From assembly GCF_032813545.1 (NCBI RefSeq), contig NZ_CP136520.1:3094001-3158000 (forward strand): 64,000 bases of DNA. The letters are read 5' to 3'. The first letter of the stretch is position 1. The number at the start of each line of letters is the position of its first letter. The notes beneath the pieces were generated by a model. It was not told the DNA's origin and did not search any database. It saw only the letters and a list, made by a program, of their open reading frames with translations. Source of the DNA: Nodosilinea sp. E11. GTDB lineage: Bacteria > Cyanobacteriota > Cyanobacteriia > Phormidesmidales > Phormidesmidaceae. Both the position numbers and the translations under genes were made by a program. Of this stretch, positions 9,685 to 30,914 are shown one piece after another.

Positions 9685-10980
9685 CTAGATTCCCAGGCGT
9701 TGGTAGACCTGATCGAGGTTGCGCAGGTGGCGATCGGGGTCAAAGCAGGTGGCGATCTCCGCTGGGGAGAGGTTGGCCTTGACGCGATCGTCGGCCTCAA
9801 TCAGGTGGCGAAAATTGCCGTTGTCGGTGTTCCAGGCCTGGTGGGCGCACGACTGCACAATGGCGTAGGCCTCTTCGCGGGCCAACCCCTTGTCAACCAG
9901 CGCCAGCATCACCCCTTGGCTAAAGACTACGCCGCCGTAGACGTTCATATTGCGGGCCATATTTTCGGGGTAGACCAGCAGATTTTTAATCAGCCCGGTG
10001 GTTTCAACCAGCATAAAGTGGGTGAGAATGCAGCTGTCGGGAAAGGCCACCCGCTCAACCGAACTGTGGGAGATATCCCGCTCGTGCCACAGGGCCACGT
10101 TCTCTAGCGCCGCCATCGCGTTGCCCCGCAAAATTCTAGCCATCCCCGTCAACCGCTCTGAGCGAATGGGGTTGCGTTTGTGGGGCATGGCCGACGAGCC
10201 CTTTTGCTTCTTAGAGAAAAACTCCTCCACTTCCAGCACATCGCTGCGCTGGAGATTGCGAATTTCTACGGCGAACCGCTCAATCGAGGCTCCCAATAGC
10301 GCCAGCGCATTCATAAACTCAGCGTGAATATCGCGAGAAATGACCTGGGTGGAAGCCGTATCGGGACGCAGCCCCAAATTTTGGCAGGCCAGCGCCTCGA
10401 TTTTGGGGTCAATGTTGGCGTAGGTGCCTACCGCGCCGGAGATTTTGCCCACGGCGATCGCATCTTGTAGATGGGCCAACCGCTCCCGGTGGCGCAGCAT
10501 CTCAGCCAGCCAGCCAGCCAGCTTAAAGCCAAAGGTAATCGGTTCGGCGTGAATGCCGTGGGAACGACCGATCATCACCGTATCGCGGTGCTCCTGGGCC
10601 TTGTAGCGAATCGCCTGAATCAAGTTCTCCACGTGGGTCATAATCACCTGAAGACTGTCGACCATCTGCAGCGACAGCGCCGTATCCAGCATGTCAGAGC
10701 TGGTCATGCCCAGGTGAATGTAGCGCCCCGCATCGCCCACGTACTCATTGACGTTAGTGAGAAAGGCAATCACATCGTGGCGTACCTCAGCTTCGATCTC
10801 GAGAATGCGCTTGGGGTCAAACTTGGCTTTGGCCTTGATTTCGTCTACGGCCTCTTGGGGAATGTAGCCCAGTTCGGCCTGGGCTTCGCACACCGCAATT
10901 TCGACCCGCAGCCAGGTCTTAAACTTGTAGTCGTCGGTCCAGAGGTCGCCCATTTCGGGCAGGGTGTAGCGTTCAATCAA
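9685..10980 (-). CDS. purB: Adenylosuccinate lyase
   Basis: 431 residues, the normal length of bacterial PurB. The fumarase/aspartase-superfamily signature GSSAMPHKRNP is at residues 261-271, with the mobile catalytic Ser in it. GRSHGIHAEP at 138-147 holds His141, equivalent to the general acid in Bacillus PurB. YIHLGMTSSDMLDTA near residue 87 contributes to the substrate pocket. The enzyme removes fumarate from SAICAR and from adenylosuccinate, serving both the IMP pathway and the IMP-to-AMP step, as a homotetramer in the cytosol. The start MIERYTLPEMG is the canonical PurB N-terminus. It stands alone; purE lies 45 kb away, so the purine genes are dispersed, as is usual in cyanobacteria. Confidence 0.97.
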   Translation of the reverse strand: MIERYTLPEMGDLWTDDYKFKTWLRVEIAVCEAQAELGYIPQEAVDEIKAKAKFDPKRILEIEAEVRHDVIAFLTNVNEYVGDAGRYIHLGMTSSDMLDTALSLQMVDSLQVIMTHVENLIQAIRYKAQEHRDTVMIGRSHGIHAEPITFGFKLAGWLAEMLRHRERLAHLQDAIAVGKISGAVGTYANIDPKIEALACQNLGLRPDTASTQVISRDIHAEFMNALALLGASIERFAVEIRNLQRSDVLEVEEFFSKKQKGSSAMPHKRNPIRSERLTGMARILRGNAMAALENVALWHERDISHSSVERVAFPDSCILTHFMLVETTGLIKNLLVYPENMARNMNVYGGVVFSQGVMLALVDKGLAREEAYAIVQSCAHQAWNTDNGNFRHLIEADDRVKANLSPAEIATCFDPDRHLRNLDQVYQRLGI

Positions 10981-11128
10981 GGCTTTGGTCTGAATACAAC
11001 CGTCCCATTCTACCCGGCCACCCCAGGCTGTGGAAAATCACCGCCCGATCTTGACCTTGAAAGGTGGGTCAGGGGGGATGCTCGCTCCCGACCCACCTTA
11101 GAATCTCCCCAGCGATTGACTAGGCGAT

Positions 11129-14100
11129 CTACTGGAGCCGCTGCACATTTTGCTGAGCGTAGGCCAAATTGGGCTGGTACTCTACGGCCTTTTGCTGGGC
11201 GATCGCATAGTTGGGGTCAGTCTCGGGCACCTGCTGCATCAGGGCAATCGAGCTGGCCCAAGCGTCGGCTACGGCCTGCCAGTCAGCCGCCGTATTGGCA
11301 GTTTGAGCCTGGTTCGCGGCAGCCTGAGCCGCATTGACGGCCTGCCTAAAGAGGTCGGCCTCTTCTACCGCTGCCGGGTCAACTGGGGCGGGGGCGGGCG
11401 CCTCACCATCAGGGGCGGGGGCCTCACCACCCGGATCAGGGGTGGTAGGCTCAATGACCGCCGGGTCGCCGTCCCCAGGGGTAGGCTGTTGTGGGCGTCC
11501 CAGCAGGCTGTTGAGCAATAGCCCCGCCAATACCAGCGCCACGGCCCCCAGACCCAGCCCTAAAATTAACCGCATGGGCAGACCAGACCCCCCTGAGCGG
11601 CGCCCACGGCCATCGTCGTTAAACTGATCAGGAGCTAGCGAGACGTGGGTAGAGGGGTCTGAGCCAAATTCTTGAATGAAATCGTCGGTGGCGTCGGGTT
11701 CGTCATCAATGACTGCCGTTCCATTCGGAATGAAGCCGTTTGTCTCGGGGCGATCGCTAAACACGTCAGCATCAAACGCCCCGTCGTCAAACCCCTCATC
11801 ATCAAACCCTGCGTCGTCTATGCTGCGATCGCTAAAGTCTGCTTCACCAAAAGCCGGATCGCTAAACGCTGTATCCCCAAAGCCCTGCGATTCAAAACCC
11901 TCGTTGCTAAAGTCTGCTTCACCAAAACCAGGGGGCTTTAACTCATCGCCACCCCATTCGACCGATTCAAGCGCCAGCTCTTCGGCAGCGGCATTATCGA
12001 CCAATCGATCTGACGTTGGGTCAGCCGCTACGTAGATGTCAGGCGGCTCAAAGGCCAACTCATCGCTATAGTGACCCTGTTCTCCTAAGTCACCGTCAAA
12101 CCTCAGATCATCGGCGGGGGCATAGTCACCCCCCACAGTTTGATCTAGCTCCATAGTGGCAAAGGGCATATCAGCATCGGCCTCAAAGCCAAAGGCATCA
12201 GCCGTGCCTGCCTCTGCATCTAGCTCCAGGGTATCAATGCTAGTGAGCGTTTCGTCATCGGCCAAAAAGGCGTCAACTTCGAAGGGGTTAGGCGTGGCAT
12301 AGGCGCTGTCATCGAAATCGGCGGACGGGTCAAGCACCAAGCTGGGGTCAAAGTCCCCTGCTGATTCATCCCAGGAGGCGAAATCTGTGCTGCCGGGGTC
12401 AAAAACCTCAGCCTCAAACCCAGATGACTCGAAACCGAGCAGATCAGGGGACAGATCGTTGGGAGTAGTCAACTCCTCCCCATCGATCAACGGCATCTCA
12501 AACGATTCAGAAGATAGATCGGCATCGGCGACATCGAGATCAAAGTCAGTGGTGCCCTCGTCACCCAACTCTTCAACGCCTGCCCAATTCTCATCGGTAT
12601 CAAAGGCCATGTTGAGTTCTGTGCTCCCAGCCTCTGCCACTAGGCTATTGGGTTCAGCCGCTAGGTCAAGATCGGCGGCGGCCCCCAAGTCTTCGAAGGC
12701 TAGATCGTCTGGCACTAACAGTTCGGGAGGTAGGTCTTCTAGACCTGGGTCGAACGGGCCTGTGGTGGCATCGGTAGAGAGTCCGAGGTCAGAAAAGTCC
12801 GCATCGTTTGAGGTGGCTGCTTCTAGGTCAAATTCTTCGGTATCAAATCCCTCAGGTTCAAATCCCTCGGGTTCAAACTCTCCAAGTTCGAATCCTTCAG
12901 GTTCAAATCCTTCCGGTTCGAATTCTGCAGGTTCGGGCTCGTCGGTATCCCATCCTCCAACCGCCGAAGAATTGAGGTCTAGATCTAGACCCTGGCCATC
13001 GATGTCTAGATTGTCAGCGCCCATGTCGCTGAGGTTTAGATCATTGGAGTCGAGATCAGTGGGGTCGAGATTGTCGGAACTTGAGCTGTCAGCAGTCAAG
13101 TCGTCAAAGCCTAGGTTGTCAAAGCCCAGGTCGTCGGCAGGCGCGTCTAGATTGATCGGGTCACTGGGGGCATCGGACTCTAGCTCGAAGCCGTTGTCAA
13201 AGGCAGACATATCATCGATCGCCGGAAAATCGGCATCCTCCGACCAGGGGCTACTAACCCCTGGCACATCAGGGGCCGCATCGAAAGATAGGGCAGCGTT
13301 ATCCTCGCTATCGCCCCACAGATCATCTAGATCGTCACTAACGTCGGGCGCAGTGGCTGGCGCAGCCGGAGTCTCAAGGTCAAAGTCGATGCCGTCTAGC
13401 TCTACAGTGGCCGCGTCATCGGCTGCCATCAGATCGGCCTCGTCAGCCTCTTCACCTAAACCCAGAATAGCGTCAGCATCAAAATCGAAACCTAGATCAG
13501 TCGTAGACTCACTCGGATCGTCCTGATCAAAGCTCAAATCTAAGTCAGAAGTGCCATCATCAACATTTGAATCGAAGTCGAGAGCGGTGGCCTCGCTATT
13601 GTCAGCAGAGGCCTCGGTCAGGTTTAGATCAAGGTCGGGGGCAGCCTCGTCAAAACCTAAATCAAAGTCCAGGGCGTCAGTCGAGCTAACTCCAGATGGA
13701 TCTTCAGAGGGATCTTCGGTTAGACCCAGACCCAGATCCTCTACAGCCGTCGCTGCCGAATCATCCTCTAAGCTCAGATCAAAATCGAGCGTTGCCGCAG
13801 TTGTCTCGGCGGGGGCATTGTCGAACTCTAGGTCGAGATCAAAGTTGTCGTCGGTGAGATCCGCAGCTGATTCATCAACTAGATCCAGGTCTGCATTTCC
13901 AGGGGTATCCCCTAACCCCAGACCCACCTCTAAATCGTTGGACGAGGTAGCCTCAGCAGACGCATCGCCCAGCGCCAGGTCGAGATCAAAGTCGTCACTA
14001 GCCGCGTCACTGGGGCCTTCCCCTAGGTCCATGGCAAAATCGAGGTCGTCGGCAGCGTTCACTTCAGGCGCATCGCCCAAGGCCAGGTCCAGATCAAAGT

Positions 14101-15490
14101 CGTCACTAGCCACATCACCGGGCGCATCACTGGGGGCTTGCCCTAGGTCCATGGCCAAATCGAGGTCGTCGGCAGCGTTCACTTCAGGCGCATCGCCCAA
14201 GGCCAGGTCGAGATCAAAGTCGTCACTAGCCGCATCACCGGTCGCATCGCCGGGGGTTTGCCCTAGGTCCATAGCAAAATCGAGGTCGTCGGCAGCGTTC
14301 ACTTCAGGCGCATCGCCCAAGGCCAGGTCGAGATCAAAGTCGTTACTAGCCGCATCACCGGTCGCATCACTGGGGTTTTGCCCTAAGTCCATGGCAAAAT
14401 CGAAGTCGTCGGCAGCGTTCACTTCAGGCGCATCGCCCAAGGCCAGGTCAAGATCAAAGTCGTCACTAGCCGCGTCACTGGGGCCTTCCCCTAAGTCCAT
14501 GGCAAAATCGAAGTCGTCGGCAGTGTTTACTTCAGGTGCATCGCCTAAGGCCAGGTCGAGATCAAAGTCGTCATTGGTTGCATCACCGGTTGTATTGCTG
14601 GGGTCTTGTCCTAGGCCCATGGCGAAGTCGAAGTCGTCGGCAGCGTTAGCCGTAGGCGCGTTGTCCAATGCCAGATCAAGATCAAAGTCGTCACTAGCCG
14701 CGACACCGGTCGCATCACTTGGGGTTTCCCCTAGCTGATCAAAGTCGAAGTCGGCGGCAGGGGAAGTTGCATCGGCGGTATTATCTAACCCCAGATCGAA
14801 ACTCAGGTCAGCATCGGTAGCCGTATCGTCTAATCCCAAATCGAAATCTAGGTCGGCATTGGCATCGGGGCTAGTGCCAGTGTCGGCAAGGTCAAAGTCG
14901 CTGGTGCTATCGGCAAAGTTTAGATCAAAATCAGCGGTAGACCCGAGTCCGCCATCGTCGCCAAAGCCCAGATCAAGTTCCTCTCCGTTGAGGTTGCCAC
15001 CCAGGGCAGTGTCAAAATCTCCCAGGTCTAGATCGAGGTTGTCAGCAGGGTTTAGATCGAACCCTAGATCTAGATCGGCGTCAGTGCTGTCAGCAGTGTT
15101 TAGATCAAACCCGAGGTCTAGGTCAGGTGCGGCAGCTGTATTCGCGAGATCAAGATCTAGAGTGAAGTCGTCAGCGACGGCGGGGGCAACATCGTGCAGC
15201 ACCAGGTCTTCGCTCCACGCACTGGTGTCAGTGCCGATCTGTTTGCCACTCACAATCAGATGGTGAACAGCGGCTAGCTCTAGGCCAGTAATGCCTTTTT
15301 TAACGTAGGCCACCAGATCGTCCTGGTTGGGCACTTGGGCACTCTCCAGGCTAACCCGCAGGATATTCTCCTGCTGAGCCACATAGGCTGTAATGCCCTG
15401 GGCCTCTAGGTGGCGATTCATCAGAGCCGCGATCGCATCTGGGTTGCCCTGGCGGGCCATTTGCAGAACATTGGGGGGCGTATTAGACAT
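11129..15490 (-). CDS. Giant Asp-rich repeat protein with one C-terminal membrane helix
   Basis: 1453 residues. Residues 1-98 form a folded-looking domain (QMARQGNPDAIAALMNRHLE...VAYVKKGITGLELAAVHHLI). Residues 100-1290 are low complexity, dominated by Asp, Leu, Phe and Ala, with alternating Asp/hydrophobic runs such as DFDLDLALGDA. Within this, residues ~265-510 are seven tandem units of 40 (some 36) residues. Two tracts with period five centred on Phe occur near residues 845-882 (EPEGF repeats) and 1180-1250 (ADFSN, EGFES, QGFGD...). A single membrane helix follows at about 1307-1330 (LILGLGLGAVALVLAGLLLN), then a Pro-rich linker and a ~75-residue Ala/Gln-rich helical C-terminus. No signal peptide, so the acidic part is probably cytoplasmic with the C-terminus outside. 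Function unknown; cation binding or condensate formation are possible inferences. Confidence 0.9.
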   Translation of the reverse strand: MSNTPPNVLQMARQGNPDAIAALMNRHLEAQGITAYVAQQENILRVSLESAQVPNQDDLVAYVKKGITGLELAAVHHLIVSGKQIGTDTSAWSEDLVLHDVAPAVADDFTLDLDLANTAAAPDLDLGFDLNTADSTDADLDLGFDLNPADNLDLDLGDFDTALGGNLNGEELDLGFGDDGGLGSTADFDLNFADSTSDFDLADTGTSPDANADLDFDLGLDDTATDADLSFDLGLDNTADATSPAADFDFDQLGETPSDATGVAASDDFDLDLALDNAPTANAADDFDFAMGLGQDPSNTTGDATNDDFDLDLALGDAPEVNTADDFDFAMDLGEGPSDAASDDFDLDLALGDAPEVNAADDFDFAMDLGQNPSDATGDAASNDFDLDLALGDAPEVNAADDLDFAMDLGQTPGDATGDAASDDFDLDLALGDAPEVNAADDLDLAMDLGQAPSDAPGDVASDDFDLDLALGDAPEVNAADDLDFAMDLGEGPSDAASDDFDLDLALGDASAEATSSNDLEVGLGLGDTPGNADLDLVDESAADLTDDNFDLDLEFDNAPAETTAATLDFDLSLEDDSAATAVEDLGLGLTEDPSEDPSGVSSTDALDFDLGFDEAAPDLDLNLTEASADNSEATALDFDSNVDDGTSDLDLSFDQDDPSESTTDLGFDFDADAILGLGEEADEADLMAADDAATVELDGIDFDLETPAAPATAPDVSDDLDDLWGDSEDNAALSFDAAPDVPGVSSPWSEDADFPAIDDMSAFDNGFELESDAPSDPINLDAPADDLGFDNLGFDDLTADSSSSDNLDPTDLDSNDLNLSDMGADNLDIDGQGLDLDLNSSAVGGWDTDEPEPAEFEPEGFEPEGFELGEFEPEGFEPEGFDTEEFDLEAATSNDADFSDLGLSTDATTGPFDPGLEDLPPELLVPDDLAFEDLGAAADLDLAAEPNSLVAEAGSTELNMAFDTDENWAGVEELGDEGTTDFDLDVADADLSSESFEMPLIDGEELTTPNDLSPDLLGFESSGFEAEVFDPGSTDFASWDESAGDFDPSLVLDPSADFDDSAYATPNPFEVDAFLADDETLTSIDTLELDAEAGTADAFGFEADADMPFATMELDQTVGGDYAPADDLRFDGDLGEQGHYSDELAFEPPDIYVAADPTSDRLVDNAAAEELALESVEWGGDELKPPGFGEADFSNEGFESQGFGDTAFSDPAFGEADFSDRSIDDAGFDDEGFDDGAFDADVFSDRPETNGFIPNGTAVIDDEPDATDDFIQEFGSDPSTHVSLAPDQFNDDGRGRRSGGSGLPMRLILGLGLGAVALVLAGLLLNSLLGRPQQPTPGDGDPAVIEPTTPDPGGEAPAPDGEAPAPAPVDPAAVEEADLFRQAVNAAQAAANQAQTANTAADWQAVADAWASSIALMQQVPETDPNYAIAQQKAVEYQPNLAYAQQNVQRLQ
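13970..14692 (-). repeat. 120-bp tandem repeats inside the Asp-rich gene
   Basis: Blocks beginning at 14041, 14161, 14281 and 14401 are nearly identical over 120 bases. Related flanking units of 108 or 120 bases bring the array to about seven copies, each encoding 36-40 residues (DDFDLDLALGDAPEVNAADD plus a variable half). Unit lengths are always multiples of three, so gain or loss of units keeps the frame. The high nucleotide identity between units points to recent amplification. Confidence 0.9.
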
Positions 15491-15618: not shown

Positions 15619-18453
15619 TTACGGATTTTGTTGATCGAGCTGCCTCAAGATAGTTTCTAGCTGCTGCTGGGCTTCACCGTAGCGCTGCCAGTCACCCTGC
15701 TGAAGGGCCTGCTGACCCGCCTGGTAAGACTCTAGGGCGGCCTGAATCAAATTTGCCATGGTGTCTGGCAGGGGGGCTGCCTCACCAGGAGCGGTTGGGG
15801 TAGCGGCTTGGGGTGCGGGCGCATCGCCAAAGATTGCGTCTAGACCTTGGTCGAGGGTTTCGCGCATAACCACGCGATCGCCGTAGGCCAAAATAACTCG
15901 CCGCAGCTCAGGCAACTCGCCCTGGTCGGCCCGCAGATAAATCGGCTGCACGTACAGCAACGACTGCTCAACGGGAATTACCAGCAGCGTCCCTCGAATC
16001 ACCCCCGACCCCTGCTGGCTCCAGAGGGTAAGCTGTTCAGAAATTTCTGGGGTTTGGCTAATGCGGGCCTCGATCTGGGTGGGGCCAAACACCAGTTCTT
16101 GCTTAGGAAATTCGTAGAGCAACAGCCGACCGTAGTTTTCACCGTCAGAGCCGCCTGCCATCCAGGCGATCATGTTGTCGCGGTTGGCGGGGGTAAACGG
16201 CAAAATCTGCAAAAACTCCTCCTGGGCCAGCCTGGGGAGCTTCATGATGATGTAATAAGGCTCCATCGCCGTCACGACATCCTCTTCTACATGCTCCGGA
16301 AACCGCCACAGGTCTTCGCGGTTGTAAAACACCTCGGGGTTTTCCATGTGGTAAGCCCGGTACATCTGGGCCTGCACGGTGAAGATATCTTGGGGGTAGC
16401 GCAGGTGCTCACGGTAGGTGGCGGGCATCGCTTCGATGGGTTTAAACAGGTTGGGAAAGATGCGGCTGTAGGTCGCTAACAGGGGGTCTTGGTCGTCGCG
16501 GGCATAGAATTCTAGAGTGCCGTCGTAGGCATCGATGAAGACTTTGACAGCGTCACGAATGTAGTTGACGCCGTTGCGCATCAGCGGGTTGGCGCTGTCT
16601 ACGAGAGAAATCAGGTCGTTGCGCCGGTTGAGCGGTTCGGAGTAGGGGTAGCGATCGCTACTCGTATAGCCATCCAAAATCCATTTAATTCGCCCTTCGA
16701 CGAGGGCTGGATAAGGGTCGCTGTCAAAGGTGAGAAACGGGGCTACCTGACGCACTCGATCGGCAAGCAGGCGGTGATAGTGGATGCGGGTGTCGGGGCT
16801 GAAGTAGTTGGAGATTAAAATCCGAAAATTGCCCAGATCGTAGGCGTAGGCCAGCCGCCGTAGCCAAGAACCCAAAGGCACGCCGCCGACTCCGGTGTAG
16901 CGATAGGCGGCATTGGTATTGCTGAGGGGGTAGTCAAACTCGTCAGTGTTGGCTCCGGTAAAAATGTAGTTGCGTGTGCTTTCGCCGTAGTAAATGCGAG
17001 GCTGATCGAGGGGCACATCTACCGTCGAGACGGGGGGCACATTGCGAATAAAAAACTCAGGCAGTCCATTGGGGGTCACCTGGTTGACCGGGCTCATCAC
17101 CACTCCGAAGCCGTGGGTAAATTTGAGCTGGCGGTTGATCCAGTTTTGGGCCTCGGGGGGCAGTTGCTCGACCGGCAGTTCTCGGGCCGAGAGCGTTACC
17201 TGGCGGTAGTCGCCATTGAGGGTATAGCGATCGATATCAACATCTTCGAAGTTGTAGTAGAGGCGAATTTCTTGCAGCTGTTTGTAGGTGCTTAGCAGGG
17301 GAGCGTAGTCCCACAGGCGAATATTGCCAATGGTCGGCCCGTTGGCATCGACCACGGCCCGGCTGAGGTTATTTTCGGCGGGGAAGGGTTCTGAGATAAC
17401 GCTGGTGAGGTTATAAGCTTGCCGGGTAAAGGCAATGTTGTGCTCAATGTAGGGCCGCTCAATGGTGAGTTCGTTGGGCTCGACCACAAAGTTTTGCTGA
17501 AACCACGGGTACAGGCCGTTCACCAGCACCAGCACTCCCAGATAGATCACAATGCCAAAGATGGGTAGCGAAAAGCCGCTGCGCCCCAGGGCAATCAGAA
17601 ACAGCGCTGCCACGGCCAGGGTGACAAACCCCATGAGCCAGTAGGCCTGAAGCCGGGCATGAACATCGGTATAGCCTGCACCAAAAATCACTCCGCTGTC
17701 GGAGTACAGCAGCAGGTAGCGATCGAGCCAGAAGCCTACCGCCAGCATCACTGCGATCGCCGCTAGCAAAATACACAGGTGGGCCTTAGCTTCCCCGGTG
17801 AGAAAATACTTCCAGCCGCGTTCGGGGCGCACCTCGCCCTTGAGGGCATAGACGGTGGCGGCCAGCAGTAGGCCCCACACCAGCAGCCCTAACAGGTTCG
17901 CCTGTATCCCCTGCCACAGGGGTAGCCGAAAGACGTAAAAGCTAATATCGCGTCCAAAAATGGGGTCAGCCGTGCCGAAGGCGGTGGGGTTGAGGTATTG
18001 CAGCACCGTTTGCCAGGTCGCCGCCGATCGCAGCGCAACACCCAGGGCCAGCACAACAATTAGGCCCAGTGCCCCCAAGTTAAGCAAGCGTCCAATCTGC
18101 TCCCGCTGGTGCAGATCGCTATAGCGGCTCAAGAACCGGTAGGGGCGATCGCGGGTAATGCGTAGAGCTATGGCGTAGTTAGCCCACAGCACCCCGGCAT
18201 AGAGGGCAAAGGCGCCTAGCCCCAGAGCCAACTGCCACCGCAGGCGCAGCCAAAACACCGACTCATAGCCCACCGACTCAAACCACCATGACTCGGTGAG
18301 CAGATGCACTAGGCTGCCCGAAAACACCAGCAGTAGAGTAATGGCCACCACCCAGGGCAGCAATCGACGCGCTCGAAAAGACTTAGCGGGGGAATAGGTC
18401 ACAGGTATTGCAATTAAGGGCAGAGCGCACCGCCAGAGACACCTCTGGGGCAC
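15619..18453 (-). CDS. UPF0182 family membrane protein
   Basis: 944 residues, matching the large UPF0182 (COG1615) family. About seven hydrophobic helices lie between residues 30 and 320 (LLPWVVAITLLLVFSGSLVH, WQLALGLGAFALYAGVLWAN and others). A large domain to about residue 850 presumably lies outside the cytoplasm. Family landmarks include YPWFQQNFVVEPNELTIERP, YIEHNIAFTRQAY, IRLWDYAPLLSTYKQLQEIR, YYNFEDVDIDRY and GVVMSPVNQV. The last ~90 residues are Pro/Ala- and then Gln-rich. Function is not established for any member I know. The GTG at 18453 gives an N-terminal extension; another GTG at 18402 would start closer to the first helix. It is downstream of, and on the same strand as, the 44-residue membrane protein, and ends 128 bases before the Asp-rich gene starts. 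Confidence 0.92.
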   Translation of the reverse strand: MPQRCLWRCALPLIAIPVTYSPAKSFRARRLLPWVVAITLLLVFSGSLVHLLTESWWFESVGYESVFWLRLRWQLALGLGAFALYAGVLWANYAIALRITRDRPYRFLSRYSDLHQREQIGRLLNLGALGLIVVLALGVALRSAATWQTVLQYLNPTAFGTADPIFGRDISFYVFRLPLWQGIQANLLGLLVWGLLLAATVYALKGEVRPERGWKYFLTGEAKAHLCILLAAIAVMLAVGFWLDRYLLLYSDSGVIFGAGYTDVHARLQAYWLMGFVTLAVAALFLIALGRSGFSLPIFGIVIYLGVLVLVNGLYPWFQQNFVVEPNELTIERPYIEHNIAFTRQAYNLTSVISEPFPAENNLSRAVVDANGPTIGNIRLWDYAPLLSTYKQLQEIRLYYNFEDVDIDRYTLNGDYRQVTLSARELPVEQLPPEAQNWINRQLKFTHGFGVVMSPVNQVTPNGLPEFFIRNVPPVSTVDVPLDQPRIYYGESTRNYIFTGANTDEFDYPLSNTNAAYRYTGVGGVPLGSWLRRLAYAYDLGNFRILISNYFSPDTRIHYHRLLADRVRQVAPFLTFDSDPYPALVEGRIKWILDGYTSSDRYPYSEPLNRRNDLISLVDSANPLMRNGVNYIRDAVKVFIDAYDGTLEFYARDDQDPLLATYSRIFPNLFKPIEAMPATYREHLRYPQDIFTVQAQMYRAYHMENPEVFYNREDLWRFPEHVEEDVVTAMEPYYIIMKLPRLAQEEFLQILPFTPANRDNMIAWMAGGSDGENYGRLLLYEFPKQELVFGPTQIEARISQTPEISEQLTLWSQQGSGVIRGTLLVIPVEQSLLYVQPIYLRADQGELPELRRVILAYGDRVVMRETLDQGLDAIFGDAPAPQAATPTAPGEAAPLPDTMANLIQAALESYQAGQQALQQGDWQRYGEAQQQLETILRQLDQQNP

Positions 18454-23619: not shown

Positions 23620-26600
23620 CTATTCAACCTTTTTGGGCACCATGTTTTCGCCGTTGAGCATGCGTTTAGCCGCATCCAGCAGCATTTCCTCTAGATAAGG
23701 CTTAGTAAAGTAGCCCTTGGCCCCTAGATCTACGGCCATCTGCCGGTGGCGATCGGCCCCCCGTGAAGTCAGCATTGCCGTAGGAATTTGGCTGAGAGCA
23801 CTGTCTTTCTGCATACGAGAGAGCAGTTCCAGGCCATCCATACGGGGCATTTCGATGTCGCAGAAGACTAGGTCGCAGGGTAGGCCAGAGCGCAGTTTTT
23901 CCCAGGCTTCCTGACCGTCGCGGGCCTGCTCGACTCGGTAGCCGACTTTGTTGAAGCTCATCGACAGCAGCTCGCGCACCGTAATTGAGTCGTCTACGAT
24001 CAGGACTGTTGGGTCAGTGTGAGCTACGACCTCAATGGGTTCCTCATCGACCGTCTGAGCCCACAGCGAAGTAGACGCGTCACGGCGCAGACGACCGCTA
24101 GCCAGGTCAATGAGCTCTAGCACATCGGCAATGGGCATGACGCGTCCGTCCCCAAGCACCGTCGCACCCGCGATGCCAATGGGCTTGGGCACCGGCCCTT
24201 CTAACTGTTTAATTACAATCTCCTGTTCACCAATTACCTGGTCAACCTGGAGGGCAATAAAGGTACTGGCGCTGCGCAGCACCACCATCGACACCACATC
24301 TTCGTCCTGGGGACCGCCGTAGACCCGACCCCGGCCCAGACTGCGGTTAAAGCGTAGCAGCTCACTCAGCGGACGGAAGGGCAGCAGGGTATCGCGCCAA
24401 AGAATGCAGGCATGGCCCTGGTCATCGGTTTGAATGCGCTCTTTGGGCACGTCGAACATGTCTTCGACCCCGTCCATCGGGAAGGCGATGCGGGCCTGGT
24501 TGTTGACACAGCTAAGCGCTTTGGTAATGCTGAGGGTAAGGGGCAGTCGAATGGTGAAGCTGGTGCCCTTGCCCACCTCAGACTCGATGGTGATCGAGCC
24601 GCGAATGTCGGATAGGGCAGTGCGCACCACGTCCATGCCCACGCCACGCCCCGAGAAGTCATCGGCCTGGTCGCGGGTGCTAAAGCCCGGCAAGAACAGT
24701 AGATCGTAGACCTCGATCTCGGTCATGGTCTGGGCTTCGGCGGGGGTGATCACCCCCTGCTTGAGTGCTTTGGCCTTAACCACTGCCGGATTAATACCGC
24801 CGCCGTTGTCGGCGATGTAGATCACGGTTTGGTTGCCTTGATAGAAAGCCCGCACCGTAATAATGCCTTCCCTCGGTTTGCCCGTGGCCATGCGCTCTTC
24901 CGGTGTCTCAATGCCGTGGGTAATGGCGTTGTTAACCAGGTGGGTCATCGGGTCGTAGAGGCGCTCCAGAATCATTTTGTCGATTAGGGTGTCGCGCCCT
25001 TCGACCACCAGCTGGGCCTCTTTGCCGCACTTGAGCGAAATGTCGCGCACAGCGCGGGGCAGGCGATCGGCGGTTTGGCCAAAGGGCACCATGCGCGCCT
25101 TGTTGAGCCCCTCCTGAAGCTGGGTGGTGACCTGACGAAACTGGCGGGCAATTTGGTCGGTAGAGTCGATGGTGAACTCAATGTCTGACGAGGCCTCCCG
25201 CACCCGGACGATTAACTCGATCATTTCCTGGGAGAGGGTGTGAAACCCGGTGAAGCGATCCATCTCTAGGGCGTCGAAGGTGGCTCCGGTGGCGTGGCTG
25301 CCGCCCCCCCGGTCAGAGGATGAAACCCCTAGGGCAAAGGCTTGACGGTTGGCAATTAAAGAGCTTTCCAGCAGCGATCGCTCGTAGAGGTCGCGCATCC
25401 GCTGGCCCACATCGTTGAGCTGTGACACCTGGTGTAGCAGGTTGTCGAGAAACTGCCGCAGACGCTCCTGGTCTTGCTCTAGGGAGTTGCGATTGACGAC
25501 CAGTTCTCCCACCAGGTTGCTGAGGTTGTCGAGGTGGCCTACCGAAACCCGCATGGTTTGGTCGTTGGTATTGGTCGCCCGCCGGGGCGATCGCCGAGAG
25601 GTCTGCCCCGTCGCCCGCCGCGACCCAAGTGATGGAGCTGACCCGCCTAGCTGGTCAGCTTCTTCCAAGAGCTTTTCCAAATCACCAAATTCATCGTCAC
25701 CGACTGGAGCGATCGCGCTATCCTCGGGCGGCCTCGGGGGTGAGGTGCGGCTTCTCATCCGCTCAGCGCTCAGATCGCTGCTACTGGAGAACCCTTCCCC
25801 CAGCAGCGCCTCTAGGTCGTCAAAGTCATCGTCGTCCAGTGCTTGAGAGGCAGATGCAAGTCCATGACTAGCTCCGTTTTCGAGATTATTTTGCTTGTCC
25901 TTAGCTACCTCCGGCACTGCTGGAGCTTCGTCCTCGGAACCCTCCATCAGAGGATCTAGAGTAAAACTGTCTGCCTGGTTTGCATCATCAGTTCCAGCCC
26001 CATCGAGCAAGCTGTCCAAGTCATCGAAACCAGCGTCATCAAAGTCACTGTCATCCTCCCAGAAGCTACTGCCATCGGCAGCGGTGACATCAGCCGTAGG
26101 AGTACCAAGGTCGTCTCCCCAATCCTCTACCGGAGCATCGAAACTAACATCTGCCTGGGCTTCAGACCTCTCAGGGGGATCGGCTGACTCCAGCGTTTGT
26201 TCTACCGAACTGTTTCCTAGAATCAATTCCCCAAAGGGGTCGTCCTCTAAAGGATCTGTTGCTGCGAAAAAGTTGCCAGTCGCTTCACCAAAAGCACTAG
26301 CACTCTCCGCTAGATCGGGATCTAGGGTATTGGAGGACGTCAAACTGTCTGCGAATAAGCCATGATCGGCCCCAACGGCAGGACCATCTGAGCTATCGGG
26401 GGCGAGCTCAAGGGTGAGTTCGGGCATGGCTTGGGCGTCATCATTGGCAAAAAAGTCGCCCTCAAAGTCGCCCTCGCCCTCAACGTCGTTCTCCTGAAGC
26501 GATGCAAAGAATCCATCCAGCTCGTCTGCGGTGACGGCATTGGTGGTCGCGGTGTCGGCCTCACTCAGATTAAAGAAATCATCGCCTTCGGGCACTGTAG

Positions 26601-28176
26601 GCCTCTCTGCCGAAGCCACAGGTAGCGGCTGATCGACAAGAAAATCAGCCAAGGGATCCGTAGTGACTTCAGCTTTTGCCTCTGCCCACGGTGCTGGCGC
26701 GTCAGCCATTAGCTCTGTCAAGGGAGCGGAGGGGGTGGCTGGGGTATGAGGGCGATCGCCCCCGCTCGTCATCTCCAGCTCCAAGTCGAGATCGTCAGCC
26801 GGTGCCGACGGTGGCCCAGCATCTAAATCGTAACCAAACAGACTGGCCATATCATCGCTGGCCTGGGCATCAGAATTGCCATCGTCACCATCGGCAGCCA
26901 GTAAATCGGCAAACTCTGCGTCTAAGTCTTCAGGTGTGTCGGCGTCATCGAGATCTAAATCATTCAGGGATACGTCAGAGAGGTCGTCTTCCCAAATACC
27001 ATCTAGACCGTCAGTCACTCCTTCAAACAGATCAGCTAGGCTATTGAGCTCGGCGGCTCCCACTTCTGGCCCTATGCTGCCAATCGACCGCTGGGGCACA
27101 GTCGGTTCAGTCGGTAAAGGTTCGTCTAACTGGCCAAATACCGACTCTAGGCTAGTATCAGTGATATTGTCGCTATCGACTAAATCTAGCTGTTCTAGCC
27201 AGCTGTCGGCATTGGTCAAGGCCAGGTCGTCAACCCCACCCTCTTCTGCGGACGCAAAGAGATCGGCTAGATCGGTTTCTCCAGAGTCATCGTTAAGGGC
27301 CTCGGCCAGCAGCGCGTCAAGGGCAGAGTCGTCGCTAATGGGTGGGGCAACGGGGATGGGTAGCAGGTCTTGCAGAGTGGTAGACGCACTAACCTGGCTG
27401 GTGGCCCCAGCCAGCACTTGGTCTTGGGCCTGCTTCAGGTCTCTAATGACTACCGGGGCTAGGGTACGGTAGGTTTGCTGCGAGTTTGTAATTGCCCCTT
27501 CAACAACCTGGGTTAGGGCACACCATGCATTCAGCTCAAACTGTTCGCCAATGCTGTGCAGGCGGTGACAGATCCGTCTCAACTCCTGACGGGAACTGCC
27601 ATTGTCGGGTTGCTTAAAGGCAGCCAGCATATCCCGCAGCAGTGCGGGAATATCACTGCGAAATACCAGCTGAAGGGCGCTGGTTTCGGGGTGGGGCGTG
27701 ACCACTGCCGGACGAGGCGGAGCGACCGGAGCAACCGGAGCGGTGGCTGGAGCTGCGGCTACTAACGCGTCGATATGGGCTTCGGCCTGGGCAAAAATAG
27801 GCTCTAGGGGAGCCATGATCTCTTGAGCCTGGTCGTTGGTCAGGCCAAAGGGGCTTTGCAACTGCTCTAGCTGCTCTTGCAGCCCGTCAAAAATTTGCAG
27901 CAGCATGGTCTCCAAGTCGCGATCGGGGCGCATGGGCGACTCTTTCATCACTTTGAAAAAGTCTTCCATGCGGTGGCTGGTGCGCTGAATGCTGTTCAGC
28001 CCCAGCATGGCCGCTCCCCCTTTCACCGAGTGGGCCGCCCGAAACACCTCATTCATCATCTCGGGGTCGTCGACGGTAGCCGCCAGGTTCAATAACCCCT
28101 GCTCGATGGTGTTGAGATGATCCTTGGCTTCTTCGATGAAGTACCCCAAGATTCGTTTTTGATCTTCAGGCGACAT
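23620..28176 (-). CDS. hmpE: CheA-type hybrid histidine kinase HmpE (PilL-like)
   Basis: 1518 residues. An Hpt domain at 1-110 has the phosphoacceptor His49 in AAHSVKGG. Residues ~275-850 are a very long acidic, low-complexity linker (LDDADTPEDLDAEFADLLAA and the like). The dimerisation helices start near 870 (MRVSVGHLDNLSNLVGELVV). The HATPase domain shows NNAITHG, ADNGGGI and GRGVGMDVV. A CheW-like domain follows, and a C-terminal receiver at ~1385-1510 has VFCDIEMPRMDG and TKPY. It phosphorylates the HmpB/HmpA receivers and controls type IV pilus motility, as shown for the Nostoc hmp locus and Synechocystis pil genes. It is the last gene of the five-gene operon, 61 bases after hmpD, with AGGGGAA as ribosome binding site. 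The linker is far longer than in most CheA proteins. Confidence 0.93.
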   Translation of the reverse strand: MSPEDQKRILGYFIEEAKDHLNTIEQGLLNLAATVDDPEMMNEVFRAAHSVKGGAAMLGLNSIQRTSHRMEDFFKVMKESPMRPDRDLETMLLQIFDGLQEQLEQLQSPFGLTNDQAQEIMAPLEPIFAQAEAHIDALVAAAPATAPVAPVAPPRPAVVTPHPETSALQLVFRSDIPALLRDMLAAFKQPDNGSSRQELRRICHRLHSIGEQFELNAWCALTQVVEGAITNSQQTYRTLAPVVIRDLKQAQDQVLAGATSQVSASTTLQDLLPIPVAPPISDDSALDALLAEALNDDSGETDLADLFASAEEGGVDDLALTNADSWLEQLDLVDSDNITDTSLESVFGQLDEPLPTEPTVPQRSIGSIGPEVGAAELNSLADLFEGVTDGLDGIWEDDLSDVSLNDLDLDDADTPEDLDAEFADLLAADGDDGNSDAQASDDMASLFGYDLDAGPPSAPADDLDLELEMTSGGDRPHTPATPSAPLTELMADAPAPWAEAKAEVTTDPLADFLVDQPLPVASAERPTVPEGDDFFNLSEADTATTNAVTADELDGFFASLQENDVEGEGDFEGDFFANDDAQAMPELTLELAPDSSDGPAVGADHGLFADSLTSSNTLDPDLAESASAFGEATGNFFAATDPLEDDPFGELILGNSSVEQTLESADPPERSEAQADVSFDAPVEDWGDDLGTPTADVTAADGSSFWEDDSDFDDAGFDDLDSLLDGAGTDDANQADSFTLDPLMEGSEDEAPAVPEVAKDKQNNLENGASHGLASASQALDDDDFDDLEALLGEGFSSSSDLSAERMRSRTSPPRPPEDSAIAPVGDDEFGDLEKLLEEADQLGGSAPSLGSRRATGQTSRRSPRRATNTNDQTMRVSVGHLDNLSNLVGELVVNRNSLEQDQERLRQFLDNLLHQVSQLNDVGQRMRDLYERSLLESSLIANRQAFALGVSSSDRGGGSHATGATFDALEMDRFTGFHTLSQEMIELIVRVREASSDIEFTIDSTDQIARQFRQVTTQLQEGLNKARMVPFGQTADRLPRAVRDISLKCGKEAQLVVEGRDTLIDKMILERLYDPMTHLVNNAITHGIETPEERMATGKPREGIITVRAFYQGNQTVIYIADNGGGINPAVVKAKALKQGVITPAEAQTMTEIEVYDLLFLPGFSTRDQADDFSGRGVGMDVVRTALSDIRGSITIESEVGKGTSFTIRLPLTLSITKALSCVNNQARIAFPMDGVEDMFDVPKERIQTDDQGHACILWRDTLLPFRPLSELLRFNRSLGRGRVYGGPQDEDVVSMVVLRSASTFIALQVDQVIGEQEIVIKQLEGPVPKPIGIAGATVLGDGRVMPIADVLELIDLASGRLRRDASTSLWAQTVDEEPIEVVAHTDPTVLIVDDSITVRELLSMSFNKVGYRVEQARDGQEAWEKLRSGLPCDLVFCDIEMPRMDGLELLSRMQKDSALSQIPTAMLTSRGADRHRQMAVDLGAKGYFTKPYLEEMLLDAAKRMLNGENMVPKKVE

Positions 28177-28237
28177 GACGATTCCCCTCTGAACACTTTT
28201 CTACCGTGACCAGTTCACTCCCGTTTGCTAACTCCAC

Positions 28238-30862
28238 CTAGTTATCTTTGTTCACCTTAAAGCGCTCCACTGATGTGAGTAGGTCGCGAGCCACTCCTAC
28301 TAGGTTTTGCAGTGACCCCGACACCCGTTGGGCCTCCTGGGAGGTTTCCTGAGCGGTGAGTTCTACCGATTGCATCACCTGGGCCACCGCGCGTGACGTC
28401 TCGGTTTGTTCCACGGTATCAGCGGTGATCGATCGCACCAGCACGTCAATGCGGTTTGACACTTGAATAATGTCTTCGAGCGATCGCTTCGCCTGTTCCG
28501 CCAGGCGGGTGCCTTCAATCACCTGCTGCGTGCCCTCTTCCATCGCGGTCATGACCCCGCCCGTCTCACTTTGAATTTGCAGCACAATCTGCTCAATTTC
28601 CTTCGAGGCCTTCGCGGCTCGGTCAGCTAGTTGCCGCACTTCGTCCGCCACGATGGCAAAGCCTCGCCCTGCTTCCCCAGCTCGGGCTGCCTCAATACTG
28701 GCGTTGAGGGCCAACAGGTTCGTACGGGAAGCAATCTGTGAAATCAACGCCACAATTTTAGAAATCTCTTGGGACGACTCCGCCAGACGCTTCACCTTGC
28801 GGGTCGTTTCCGCCACCGTTTCGCGAATCTCTAGAATCCCCGCCACTGTGCGCTCTACCGACTCGCCGCCCTTGAGCGCCGTAGACGATGCCGTCCGCGC
28901 CACTTCCTCTGCCTCGCGAGCGCTCTCGGCCACCCGCTGAATCGAGTCGGTCATCACCTGTACCGAGTTCAGCGTCACTGCTAATTCCTCGGCCTGGCGC
29001 AAGGCGTCTGCCGATAGGCTGCGGGCAAAAATCTCGTTTTCGGTAGAGCCTTTGCTGACCTGGCGAGCGGCCACACTCACCTGTTCTACAATTTCCCGCA
29101 GGTTTTGAATGGTGAGGTTGAACGAGTCGGCGACAGCCCCCAGCACGTCGGCGGTGACCTCCGCCTGTACGGTTAGGTCGCCTCGTGCCGCGCCCTCTAC
29201 GTCATCTAGCAGGCGAATAACCTGGCGCTGTAAGTCTTCTTTGGCCTGCTCCTGCTCTTGGGCTTTGCGCTGGGCCTCACTGGTGGTGGTTAAAATCACC
29301 CGCGACATTTTGTTAAAGCTGCTGGCCAGACGACCAAACTCATCTTCGGTGAAGACCGTGGCTCGGGCAGTCAAGTTGCCCTGAATGACGGTGTCAAACT
29401 GATGCTGTAGATCATCGACGCTCTTTTTCATCTGGCGGTTGGCCAGGTGGCTCGCTCCGAAGGCTGCGCCAAATCCAGCAACGCCACCGGCTAAAGCCAT
29501 GGCCGCGTGTACATCCTTAGGCATCGACTGACCCGGCCGCAGGGTAGAGGCGGCAAAGTTAATCACTCCGACCGCCAAGGCCGAAGCGACTCCAGCGGCG
29601 ATCGCCACGATAATTTCTTTATGGGGCAAAGGAGCATTGTCTAAAAAGCCCAGCCAGTCTTGCTCAGCCGACACCGCCTCTACCTCATGACTGTCGCCCT
29701 GGGTAAAGACCGGCAGGCTATCGGTAGCCCCGGCAATACTAAAGATATCGTCATCGCTAATCGCCGCCTGATCGCCCATATCACTCAGGTCAAAGGCTGA
29801 AGTGCCGTTGCTGTAACCGCCGTTATCATCGGTAGAACTAAGGCCTGAAGTACCCACGGACGGGGTAGTAAAGCCGGCGGAGCTATCTGACAGCTCAAAG
29901 TCAGGCAAGTTACCAAGATCGTCAAAATCGCTAAATTCGTCTAGAAAATCGACGTTGCTGCTGGGCTGGACACTGTCGTCTAGCTCTAGCGCCGATGGGT
30001 AGCCATTTTCGGCGTAGGCGTCGTAGTCGGCGATACTATCGCTGGCGGTATCCAAATCATCGGTCAGTAGATCGGGCTCAGGGGCAAAGACGGTCATATC
30101 GTCGCCACCATCGTCGGCTGGGGGCCAGTCTTGATCAAACGACTGGGAGGCTAGGCCGCCGCCATAGAGGTCCTCGCCATGGAGGACTGTCCCGCCAAAG
30201 GGGTCATCACTATCATCGACAATTTCTAAGGAGTCAAAGGGGGGATCGTCATCGAAGGTGATGTCGCTAAGGCCGTTTTGTCCGGCTGCCCAGCGATTGT
30301 TCTGCGCCGCGTCGCTCCCAAAGTTATCCTCTGTGCCTATACCTGGTGTGCCGAAGGGGTCACGAGAACTGCTAGAAAAGGGATCGGCTAGACCCGCGCC
30401 AGTTTCGGCGATGGAGGCAGGAAAATCGTCCTCTAGGCTGAAGTCGTCCAGCTCGAGATGGCTGTCTGATAGGTCGGCGTCGCTCATTGGCCCAAGACCA
30501 CTTTCTAAATCCATCGACAGCGAAGTACCCGCGTCGAAGAAGGTTTCTCCTGCATCAGTTTCGTAGTCTACGGCTGAGCCATTGGCTGCGAACTGGTTGG
30601 CATAATCAAGCCCATTGCTGGCATAGTCAACGTACTCCGGCTCGGAGGTGAGGTCGAGCACCGCGCTGTATTGAGCCGCTGCCACCTCGTACTGCTGCAA
30701 GCCATAGCAGTAGATGTGGCCTCGCAGCAGCAGCACACTGGGGTCTTCGGGGTAATCGGTAGCGAGCTGATCGATAACCGCCGCGGCCTCTGGATAGTTG
30801 CCCTGTACGTAGGCTCGTTCTGCTTTTTGATAGGCTTGAGAGTAATCGATGCCTGAAGCCAT
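28238..30862 (-). CDS. hmpD: Methyl-accepting chemotaxis protein HmpD (PilJ-like)
   Basis: 874 residues from the ATG at 30862, which has AGGAGAA upstream; the frame's earlier Met is not preceded by one. Residues 1-95 are TPR-like ([20 protein letters not shown]...). Residues ~95-410 are an Asp/Ser-rich acidic linker. Two hydrophobic segments follow at about 420-480 ([40 protein letters not shown]). HAMP-like helices occupy 490-600. The signalling domain occupies 600-870 with the conserved tip [20 protein letters not shown] that binds CheA and CheW. There is no periplasmic ligand-binding domain, so input probably comes through the TPR/acidic region or the membrane. It belongs to the motility operon between hmpC and hmpE. 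Confidence 0.92.
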
Positions 30863-30914
30863 GGTCTTCTCCTGCCGGTGCAAGTGTCCTAAGGGGGTGA
30901 GGATGGGCTAGGCC

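Follow-up and report, generated by a model that had tools for sequence, protein, structure and literature searches.

The window analysed here (64,000 nucleotides of the 6.1-Mb genome of the filamentous cyanobacterium Nodosilinea sp. E11; G000:C7:3094001-3158000) harbours a gene for a protein of which 19.3% of all residues are Asp. The locus raises the question what such a protein, apparently held in the membrane by one helix, does in the cell, and which of its properties are maintained by selection. A first-pass annotation of the sequence stated that no function has been described for this protein. Indeed, none was found in the open-licence literature, in which no paper describing the acidic-protein family was encountered, judged by title and start of abstract, and a Pfam search with the whole protein at E up to 1 matched no family. 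The same annotation missed that the protein is part of a conserved family, that its N-terminal domain is folded and that short motifs are conserved; it also missed the probable cytoplasmic side of the acidic part, the relatives across cyanobacteria, and HubP/FimV as a functional analogue.

Architecture and genomic neighbourhood

The protein consists, in this order, of a folded N-terminal domain, an Asp-rich linker of ~1,190 residues, a single membrane helix and a C-terminal domain that is helical (Table 1). The membrane helix and the helical C-terminus had both been proposed in the first-pass annotation and were confirmed as predictions, by the presence of one hydropathy peak and by an AlphaFold2 model, respectively.

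Table 1 Coordinates of the acidic-protein gene, its parts, its neighbours and the compact sister protein (window positions unless a contig is named)
Feature	Residues	Position	Strand	Basis or remark
purB, adenylosuccinate lyase (downstream neighbour)		9685..10980	-	NCBIfam TIGR00928
Acidic membrane-anchored protein gene	1453 aa	11129..15490	-	ATG 15490, stop 11129
N-terminal domain	1-100	15191..15490	-	AlphaFold2 model; 59-row alignment
Acidic linker (predicted disordered, cytoplasmic)	about 106-1290	11621..15175	-	Composition, charge-hydropathy
Seven-unit DFDLDLAL array, 36/40-residue units	268-539	13874..14689	-	Head spacing
Five near-identical units	308-499	13994..14569	-	84-nt cores 90-98% identical
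First Phe-every-five tract, FEPEG-type	857-890	12821..12922	-	
Second Phe-every-five tract	about 1189-1244	11759..11926	-	
Juxtamembrane motif DATDDFIQEF	1266-1275	11666..11695	-	Conserved across orthologues
Predicted single membrane helix	about 1306-1331	11498..11575	-	Hydropathy peak 2.68; wider limits about 1302-1333
C-terminal helical domain (predicted periplasmic)	1373-1453	11132..11374	-	AlphaFold2 model
UPF0182 membrane protein (upstream neighbour)		15619..18453	-	Pfam PF03699
Compact sister protein (L183)	about 284 residues	G000:C7:1826945-1827793		

The flanking genes are largely conserved within the genus. Of 23 genus loci, 20 have the UPF0182 gene next to the acidic-protein gene; the exceptions, in which it was not found, are L054, L055 and L058 (the last covered up to its contig end only). 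The purB gene adjoins it in 21 of 23, being not found in L038 and in L053, which is cut by a contig end. A search for a domain shared with the C-terminus of UPF0182 gave no match, and no open-licence paper was found that names UPF0182 together with cyanobacteria. A defence library also gave no match. Between the stop codon of the gene and purB a long stable hairpin is present (11058-11098), without a strong T-run; the 92-nt stretch at 11040-11131 folds at -38 kcal/mol (z -2.7) and may be a terminator or attenuator. Promoter and terminator scans near the gene yielded little above shuffles.

A CheA-type hybrid kinase and a methyl-accepting receptor are encoded at 23620-30883 on the reverse strand, and by eye their Asp-rich linkers show DFDDL-like runs. 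The receptor has an acidic stretch before its membrane segment, as does the 1453-residue protein. Linkage with chemotaxis was considered and rejected. The receptor gene lies about 13 kb away here and 32-121 kb away in 7 of 10 relatives; in the other three it is located on another contig (two) or at about 1 Mb (one). Because of this variable distance the chemotaxis genes are regarded as loose regional synteny only.

Composition, repeats and conserved motifs of the linker

Orthologues, defined by a match to the N-terminal domain at E up to 1e-20, were found in 25 of 57 genomes, i.e. in 24 of the 26 genomes of the genus (its own included) and in 1 of 31 others. The two genus genomes without orthologue are 83 and 84% complete. 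The nearest named relatives include Nodosilinea nodulosa PCC 7104, with 85% identity over the N-terminal domain. Besides the gene's own locus, 24 orthologous loci were available; L053 (cut by the contig end) and L060 (from another family) were set aside, leaving 23 proteins, the window protein included, for analysis of composition and motifs.

Residues 106-1310 of the window protein comprise 22% Asp, 7.3% Glu, 0.1% Lys and 0.7% Arg, resulting in a net charge of -344; Asp and Glu together make up 29.6% of residues 106-1290. Lys, Arg and His are absent from residues 100-1129, a stretch of 1030 positions, while the next-longest basic-free run among 29 ORFs picked of the 44 in the window, the acidic protein included, is 163 residues. 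The alternation of Asp and hydrophobic residues noted in the first-pass annotation is well beyond chance, with 37 acid/hydrophobic alternating runs in residues 106-1310 versus 6.7 in shuffles (sd 2.4, maximum 15; 500 shuffles). Linker length ranges from 395 to 1359 residues over the 23 complete proteins (coefficient of variation 0.23). Net charge per residue is -0.290 (sd 0.027) and Asp+Glu content 29.4% (sd 2.3) over the same set, with L056 (395 residues, -0.185) and L055 (1196 residues, -0.341) as charge extremes. By the charge-hydropathy criterion every one of the 23 linkers is on the disordered side, which suggests that the linker is disordered. The first-pass annotation had considered that homologues might turn out to be non-acidic. 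This was not observed: the linkers are acidic in all 25 orthologous sequences tabulated.

Part of the linker is repetitive. Tandem Repeats Finder (TRF) detected a 120-bp array at 14003-14760, and DFDLDLAL heads occur at residues 268, 308, 344, 384, 424, 464 and 500, spaced by 36 or 40 residues. The first-pass annotation had described about seven nearly identical units. All seven heads are present, but only the five starting from 308 to 464 are closely similar, the first and last units being diverged. The core sequences of these five show a mean dN of 0.031 and a mean dS of 0.188 (10 non-independent pairs). The repeats are real, in frame and recently expanded, as had been proposed; dN is well below dS. 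Assembly duplication, which the same annotation had named as a possible error, is unlikely because the longest exact repeat is 67 nt (read depth unchecked), and the copies indeed differ from one another.

TRF analysis of the 25 orthologous coding sequences (window, L037-L060) gave 71 rows, all with periods divisible by three. Tandem repeats are present in 21 of the 25, with varying period and copy number, and none were detected in L052, L056, L057 and L060. The period of the best-scoring repeat ranges from 15 to 492 bp between species; a period of 132 bp is common to L043, L044, L045 and L047. Since four of the 25 sequences lack tandem repeats, these are the usual but not a universal route to the acidic composition. 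The two Phe-centred tracts had been said to recall pentapeptide repeats. Their period of five is real, the longest Phe-every-five run being 7, while none of 1000 shuffles went beyond 5, but they are not pentapeptide repeats: the protein has no Pfam match of this kind, and four A(D/N)Lxx-type units in a row do not occur.

Furthermore, short motifs are conserved within the variable linkers. Ten patterns were compared with 200 shuffle rounds of the linkers over the 23 proteins, and nine of them exceeded every round. Three patterns, each with a shuffle maximum of 1, were DDFIxxF-type (DATDDFIxxF; 21 of 23 proteins), FxTMxL[DE] (17/23) and FExVEF (13/23). The DDFIxxF-type motif sits 31-41 residues before the hydropathy peak. 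The other six were [DE][DE]LW (19/23, shuffle maximum 6), FDPx[LV] (21/23, maximum 8), NPF (17/23, maximum 7), FEDL (15/23, maximum 8), NGF (22/23, maximum 9) and DFI, which overlaps with the DDFIxxF-type (22/23, maximum 9). A PxEL-type pattern was at chance (8/23 versus a shuffle maximum of 13). The excess is descriptive, because the patterns were chosen after inspection of the sequences. The last 550 residues of the linker gave alignments well above shuffled controls in all 6 orthologues tested (22 available), with identities of 29-43% versus 25-28% for shuffles.

End domains, topology and the wider family

The modelled N-terminal domain has the order helix-helix-strand-strand-helix-strand-strand (AlphaFold2 pLDDT 84.1, pTM 0.71). 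Comparison of its 59-row alignment with Pfam yielded 14 families, each matched by at most 3 rows, and identification by solved structure was abandoned, the best sequence match having an E of 0.052. In structural comparisons with VIA-align the model resembled alpha-beta-beta-alpha-beta proteins, namely the prodomain-like 4hlb (Z 8.6), RimP (7.4) and KhpB (7.1). All these Z scores are middling, and therefore no function was assigned from the fold. With Foldseek neither the N-terminal nor the C-terminal domain had a match at E up to 0.001.

The C-terminal domain was modelled as a helical bundle (pLDDT 94.7, pTM 0.84). Its fold resembles that of MIT domains, as in Vps4 and spastin (Z 10.9 and rmsd 1.9 over 76 residues to 9bl8), although for helical bundles scores below about 13 may show a common arrangement only. 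Unlike MIT domains, it is predicted to lie on the other side of the membrane. MIT was not among the 18 Pfam families listed for the 34-row C-terminal alignment at E up to 0.1, nor was a sequence match to it present among the PDB matches listed for that alignment. The Pfam Tri-helical domain PF24465 scored 15.1 bits against the window C-terminal domain, with a cut-off of 27; 14 of the 34 alignment members match it at E up to 0.1 (best 2e-4). Two other identifications were rejected. An extrinsic photosystem II protein was too weak a candidate for the C-terminal domain (best solved-structure match E 0.012). The gliding protein GltJ gave NCBIfam E values of 0.048 with the window protein and 6.4e-5 with a Laspinema relative, far under the cut-offs, and was dismissed because the match was judged to reflect composition around the helix; FliL models also match that Laspinema relative (1.4e-4 and 0.0019).

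The side of the membrane occupied by the acidic arm may be deduced from the charges flanking the helix. According to the positive-inside rule the basic flank of a membrane helix lies in the cytoplasm. Within ~20 positions, basic residues are more numerous before than after the helix in 22 of 23 proteins and equal in one. The difference is modest, with means of 3.3 before and 1.8 after (n=23). As basic residues are commoner on the N-terminal side of the helix, the acidic arm probably faces the cytoplasm. The C-terminal domain is predicted to be located outside the cytoplasm, and its other copies agree with this placement: of the seven found elsewhere in the same genome, five are preceded by a membrane segment or lipobox, one by a borderline segment (peak 1.43) and one by none. 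In another family (L060, L101) more than 100 additional residues follow the C-terminal helical domain.

The N-terminal domain is not restricted to the genus. It was found at E up to 1e-12 in 54 of 292 genomes of the phylum, and in a scan of named genomes, which covered at least 80 loci, 98 candidates encoded a relative. In a tree of 98 rows, 21 form a genus clade (support 100/98). Outside this clade, 12 have long acidic linkers, by our own thresholds of 300 or more residues and a charge under -0.2 per residue, and 14 have short ones. The genus clade and the other giants are in separate clades of the best tree, which is based on short domains and has many unresolved forks, and which is compatible with a single origin of the acidic linker as well as with several.

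Among the 80 loci listed, 29 carry within flanks of at most 6 kb a gene for a 529-residue protein resembling 1,4-alpha-glucan branching enzyme, a name that denotes likeness, the scores being below NCBIfam cut-offs. This very conserved gene, for which phosphoglycerate dehydrogenase had been considered and rejected when it was found to be branching-enzyme-like, is mostly located head to head with the N-domain gene. Among the loci listed it accompanies all 12 giants, 11 of the 14 short acidic loci and 6 others, and none of the 20 genus loci. Loci L095, L097, L104, L107, L113, L121-L123, L127 and L129 are examples; most of the N-domain proteins at the 29 loci are acidic. The acidic proteins encoded next to the branching-enzyme-like gene share the N-terminal domain, an acidic linker and one helix with the window protein, and some of them also the C-terminal domain; they differ in locus and in linker length (about 70 to 1436 residues). 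Among giant relatives outside the genus a helix was detected in nine, of which seven are without C-terminal domain by profile. In all 5 genus genomes read, the ~12-kb stretches around the branching-enzyme-like gene held no N- or C-domain gene. A simple account, though not proven, would be that of one old gene lineage that was relocated in this genus.

A compact sister protein is encoded in the same genome as well; it combines the N-terminal domain (profile E 5e-9) with a single membrane helix and, by profile, the same C-terminal domain. Unlike that of the acidic protein, its linker is short and basic, with a net charge of +8 over 40 residues. It was matched in 25 of 26 genus genomes and in 45 of 57 overall (E up to 1e-30), in 7 of which the match stops before the C-terminal domain; 23 of the 26 genus genomes harbour both proteins. 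The sister matched no NCBIfam family at E up to 0.01. It shares 45% identity over 284 alignment positions with a basic-linker paralogue from Laspinema, and six Laspinema-group relatives of the sister have linkers of net +6 to +7. In Laspinema and relatives (L129, L131, L132, L134, L135 and L140) three paralogues with the N-domain are clustered, of which one has an acidic linker and another a basic one. The opposite linker charge on otherwise matching proteins gives a hint that sister and acidic protein may be paired.

Possible functions of the acidic protein

Of the functions considered, we tentatively prefer that of a membrane-anchored docking scaffold facing the cytoplasm and working in the manner of HubP/FimV, which we hold to be possible though somewhat short of probable. 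In such a scaffold the single helix would anchor the protein to the membrane and leave its N-terminus on the cytoplasmic side, and the disordered polyanionic arm would extend from the helix into the cytoplasm with the folded domain at its tip, while the small helical C-terminal domain on the opposite side of the membrane would place the protein. The DFDLDL and Phe-every-five motifs could provide many weak, interchangeable sites for basic or hydrophobic surfaces of client proteins, and the few conserved motifs, chiefly DATDDFIxxF near the membrane, could bind specific partners. In-frame gain and loss of repeats would alter reach and valency at unchanged charge density. This proposal builds on the architecture of the sequence, on its conserved composition and motifs and on repeat arrays that differ between orthologues, all of which were shown by computation; the topology and the disorder of the arm are deduced from sequence.

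The analogy is with the polar organizers HubP and FimV of Vibrio, Shewanella and Pseudomonas. One source attributes to HubP a large cytosolic domain that is highly acidic and contains Asp/Glu-rich repeats, and states that its known partners interact chiefly with acidic cytosolic modules (PMC8789113). A second source describes a cytoplasmic region that is acidic, largely unstructured and carried by a single helix, with acidic repeats that differ in composition, length and number even among close species (PMC12918733). The cyanobacterial protein resembles these proteins in its single membrane helix, in a helical domain at one end and in a long acidic region, which is predicted to be disordered and the cytoplasmic side of which is here suggested by the flanking basic residues. 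Its acidic share is comparable (29.6% in the linker versus 25% in the cytoplasmic region of P. putida FimV; PMC12918733), and its repeats likewise vary between close species (present in 21 of 25 orthologous sequences). An argument against the analogy is that the second source regards the FimV domain as the likely principal interface with clients (PMC12918733).

The characteristic domains of the HubP/FimV family were not detected in our protein: no LysM-like domain was matched in Pfam at E up to 1, and neither FimV_core nor the TPR-containing FimV_Cterm in NCBIfam at E up to 1. Genome-wide, the best E values of FimV_core (0.455) and FimV_Cterm (0.611) were under the cut-off, in searches that had no positive control (for FimV_core, 0 of 14 control genomes passed). 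Furthermore, the order appears to be inverted, with the N-terminal domain in the cytoplasm and the C-terminal domain outside, and the host is a cyanobacterium. Because LysM and FimV domains were not found and the orientation is apparently inverted, the protein at most works like HubP and is not filed as a member of that family.

Our estimate is held at this level because the motif islands argue for partners, while the constant charge density would suit a polyelectrolyte brush or entropic spacer equally well. The bulk charge and size of such a brush would hold ribosomes, DNA or other membranes at a distance from the membrane, or would space the N-terminal domain from it. This reading is unlikely but a serious contender. 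It is favoured by the maintenance of charge density while sequence and length drift, and by the complete absence of basic residues over 1030 positions, which maximises extension. However, a brush needs neither motif islands conserved beyond shuffles nor the above-shuffle alignments of the 550 residues before the helix. Several other points also count against a docking scaffold. Both folded domains are without functional match, and the MIT-like score is within the range of common bundles. A physical role alone would yield the same composition, and shared ancestry could partly explain the conservation. The positive-inside difference is modest, 4 of the 25 sequences lack tandem repeats, the PxEL-type pattern is at chance, most giants outside the genus (7/9) are without the C-terminal domain, and the chemotaxis cluster is not tightly linked.

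It is rather improbable that the protein is a former of condensates, in which the arm and a basic partner, with the basic-linker sister as candidate, would demix into a membrane-bound droplet. The high charge, low complexity and repeats would fit, as would a sister with both end domains by profile and a basic linker, its presence in nearly all genus genomes, mostly together with the acidic protein, and the similar linker charge of its Laspinema-group relatives. On the other hand, the arm alone would be strongly self-repelling, the sister gene is not a neighbour of the acidic-protein gene, and a charge of +8 is small against -345.

A role as cation buffer or mineral binder, with the carboxylates holding Mg, Ca or Mn at the membrane, is distinctly improbable as well. 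The high Asp+Glu content of the linker would suit it, and a loose EF-loop-like pattern occurs 21 times, a count that had no shuffle control and that such a composition would yield freely. Calcium binding by a known motif, for which the first-pass annotation had left room, found no support: the protein has no Pfam match at E up to 1, and 0 matches each to the D-x-[DNS]-x-[DNSG]-G loop and the RTX nonapeptide GGxGxDxUx. Moreover, the acidic part is predicted to be cytoplasmic, and simple buffering does not need conserved motifs.

A pentapeptide-repeat or amyloid-like beta array is very unlikely, since beyond the Phe-every-five run there is no Pfam pentapeptide match and no A(D/N)Lxx run, and the charge density would oppose stacking. 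An assembly duplication or non-coding artefact is hardly credible: the repeats are long and similar, but the copies differ and the frame is maintained in 22 further complete orthologues, most of which carry different repeat arrays.

Returning to the docking scaffold, the wider proposal, put forward with still more reserve, is that of a cyanobacterial family of membrane-tethered polyanionic scaffolds resembling HubP reversed. In such a family selection would maintain charge density together with a few motifs, not the sequence as such, and in-frame turnover of repeats would act as a fast dial for reach and valency; by this means linkers of more than 1,000 residues would have been formed in two or more clades of the N-domain tree. 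If the protein is a hub, it would be a cyanobacterial membrane organiser comparable with HubP/FimV, with inverted topology and other domains at its ends. The 23 complete orthologues amount to an experiment done by nature: their length and repeats differ, whereas their charge density is almost the same. With these orthologues it is directly testable which property of a disordered protein is visible to selection: charge, valency, motifs or length.
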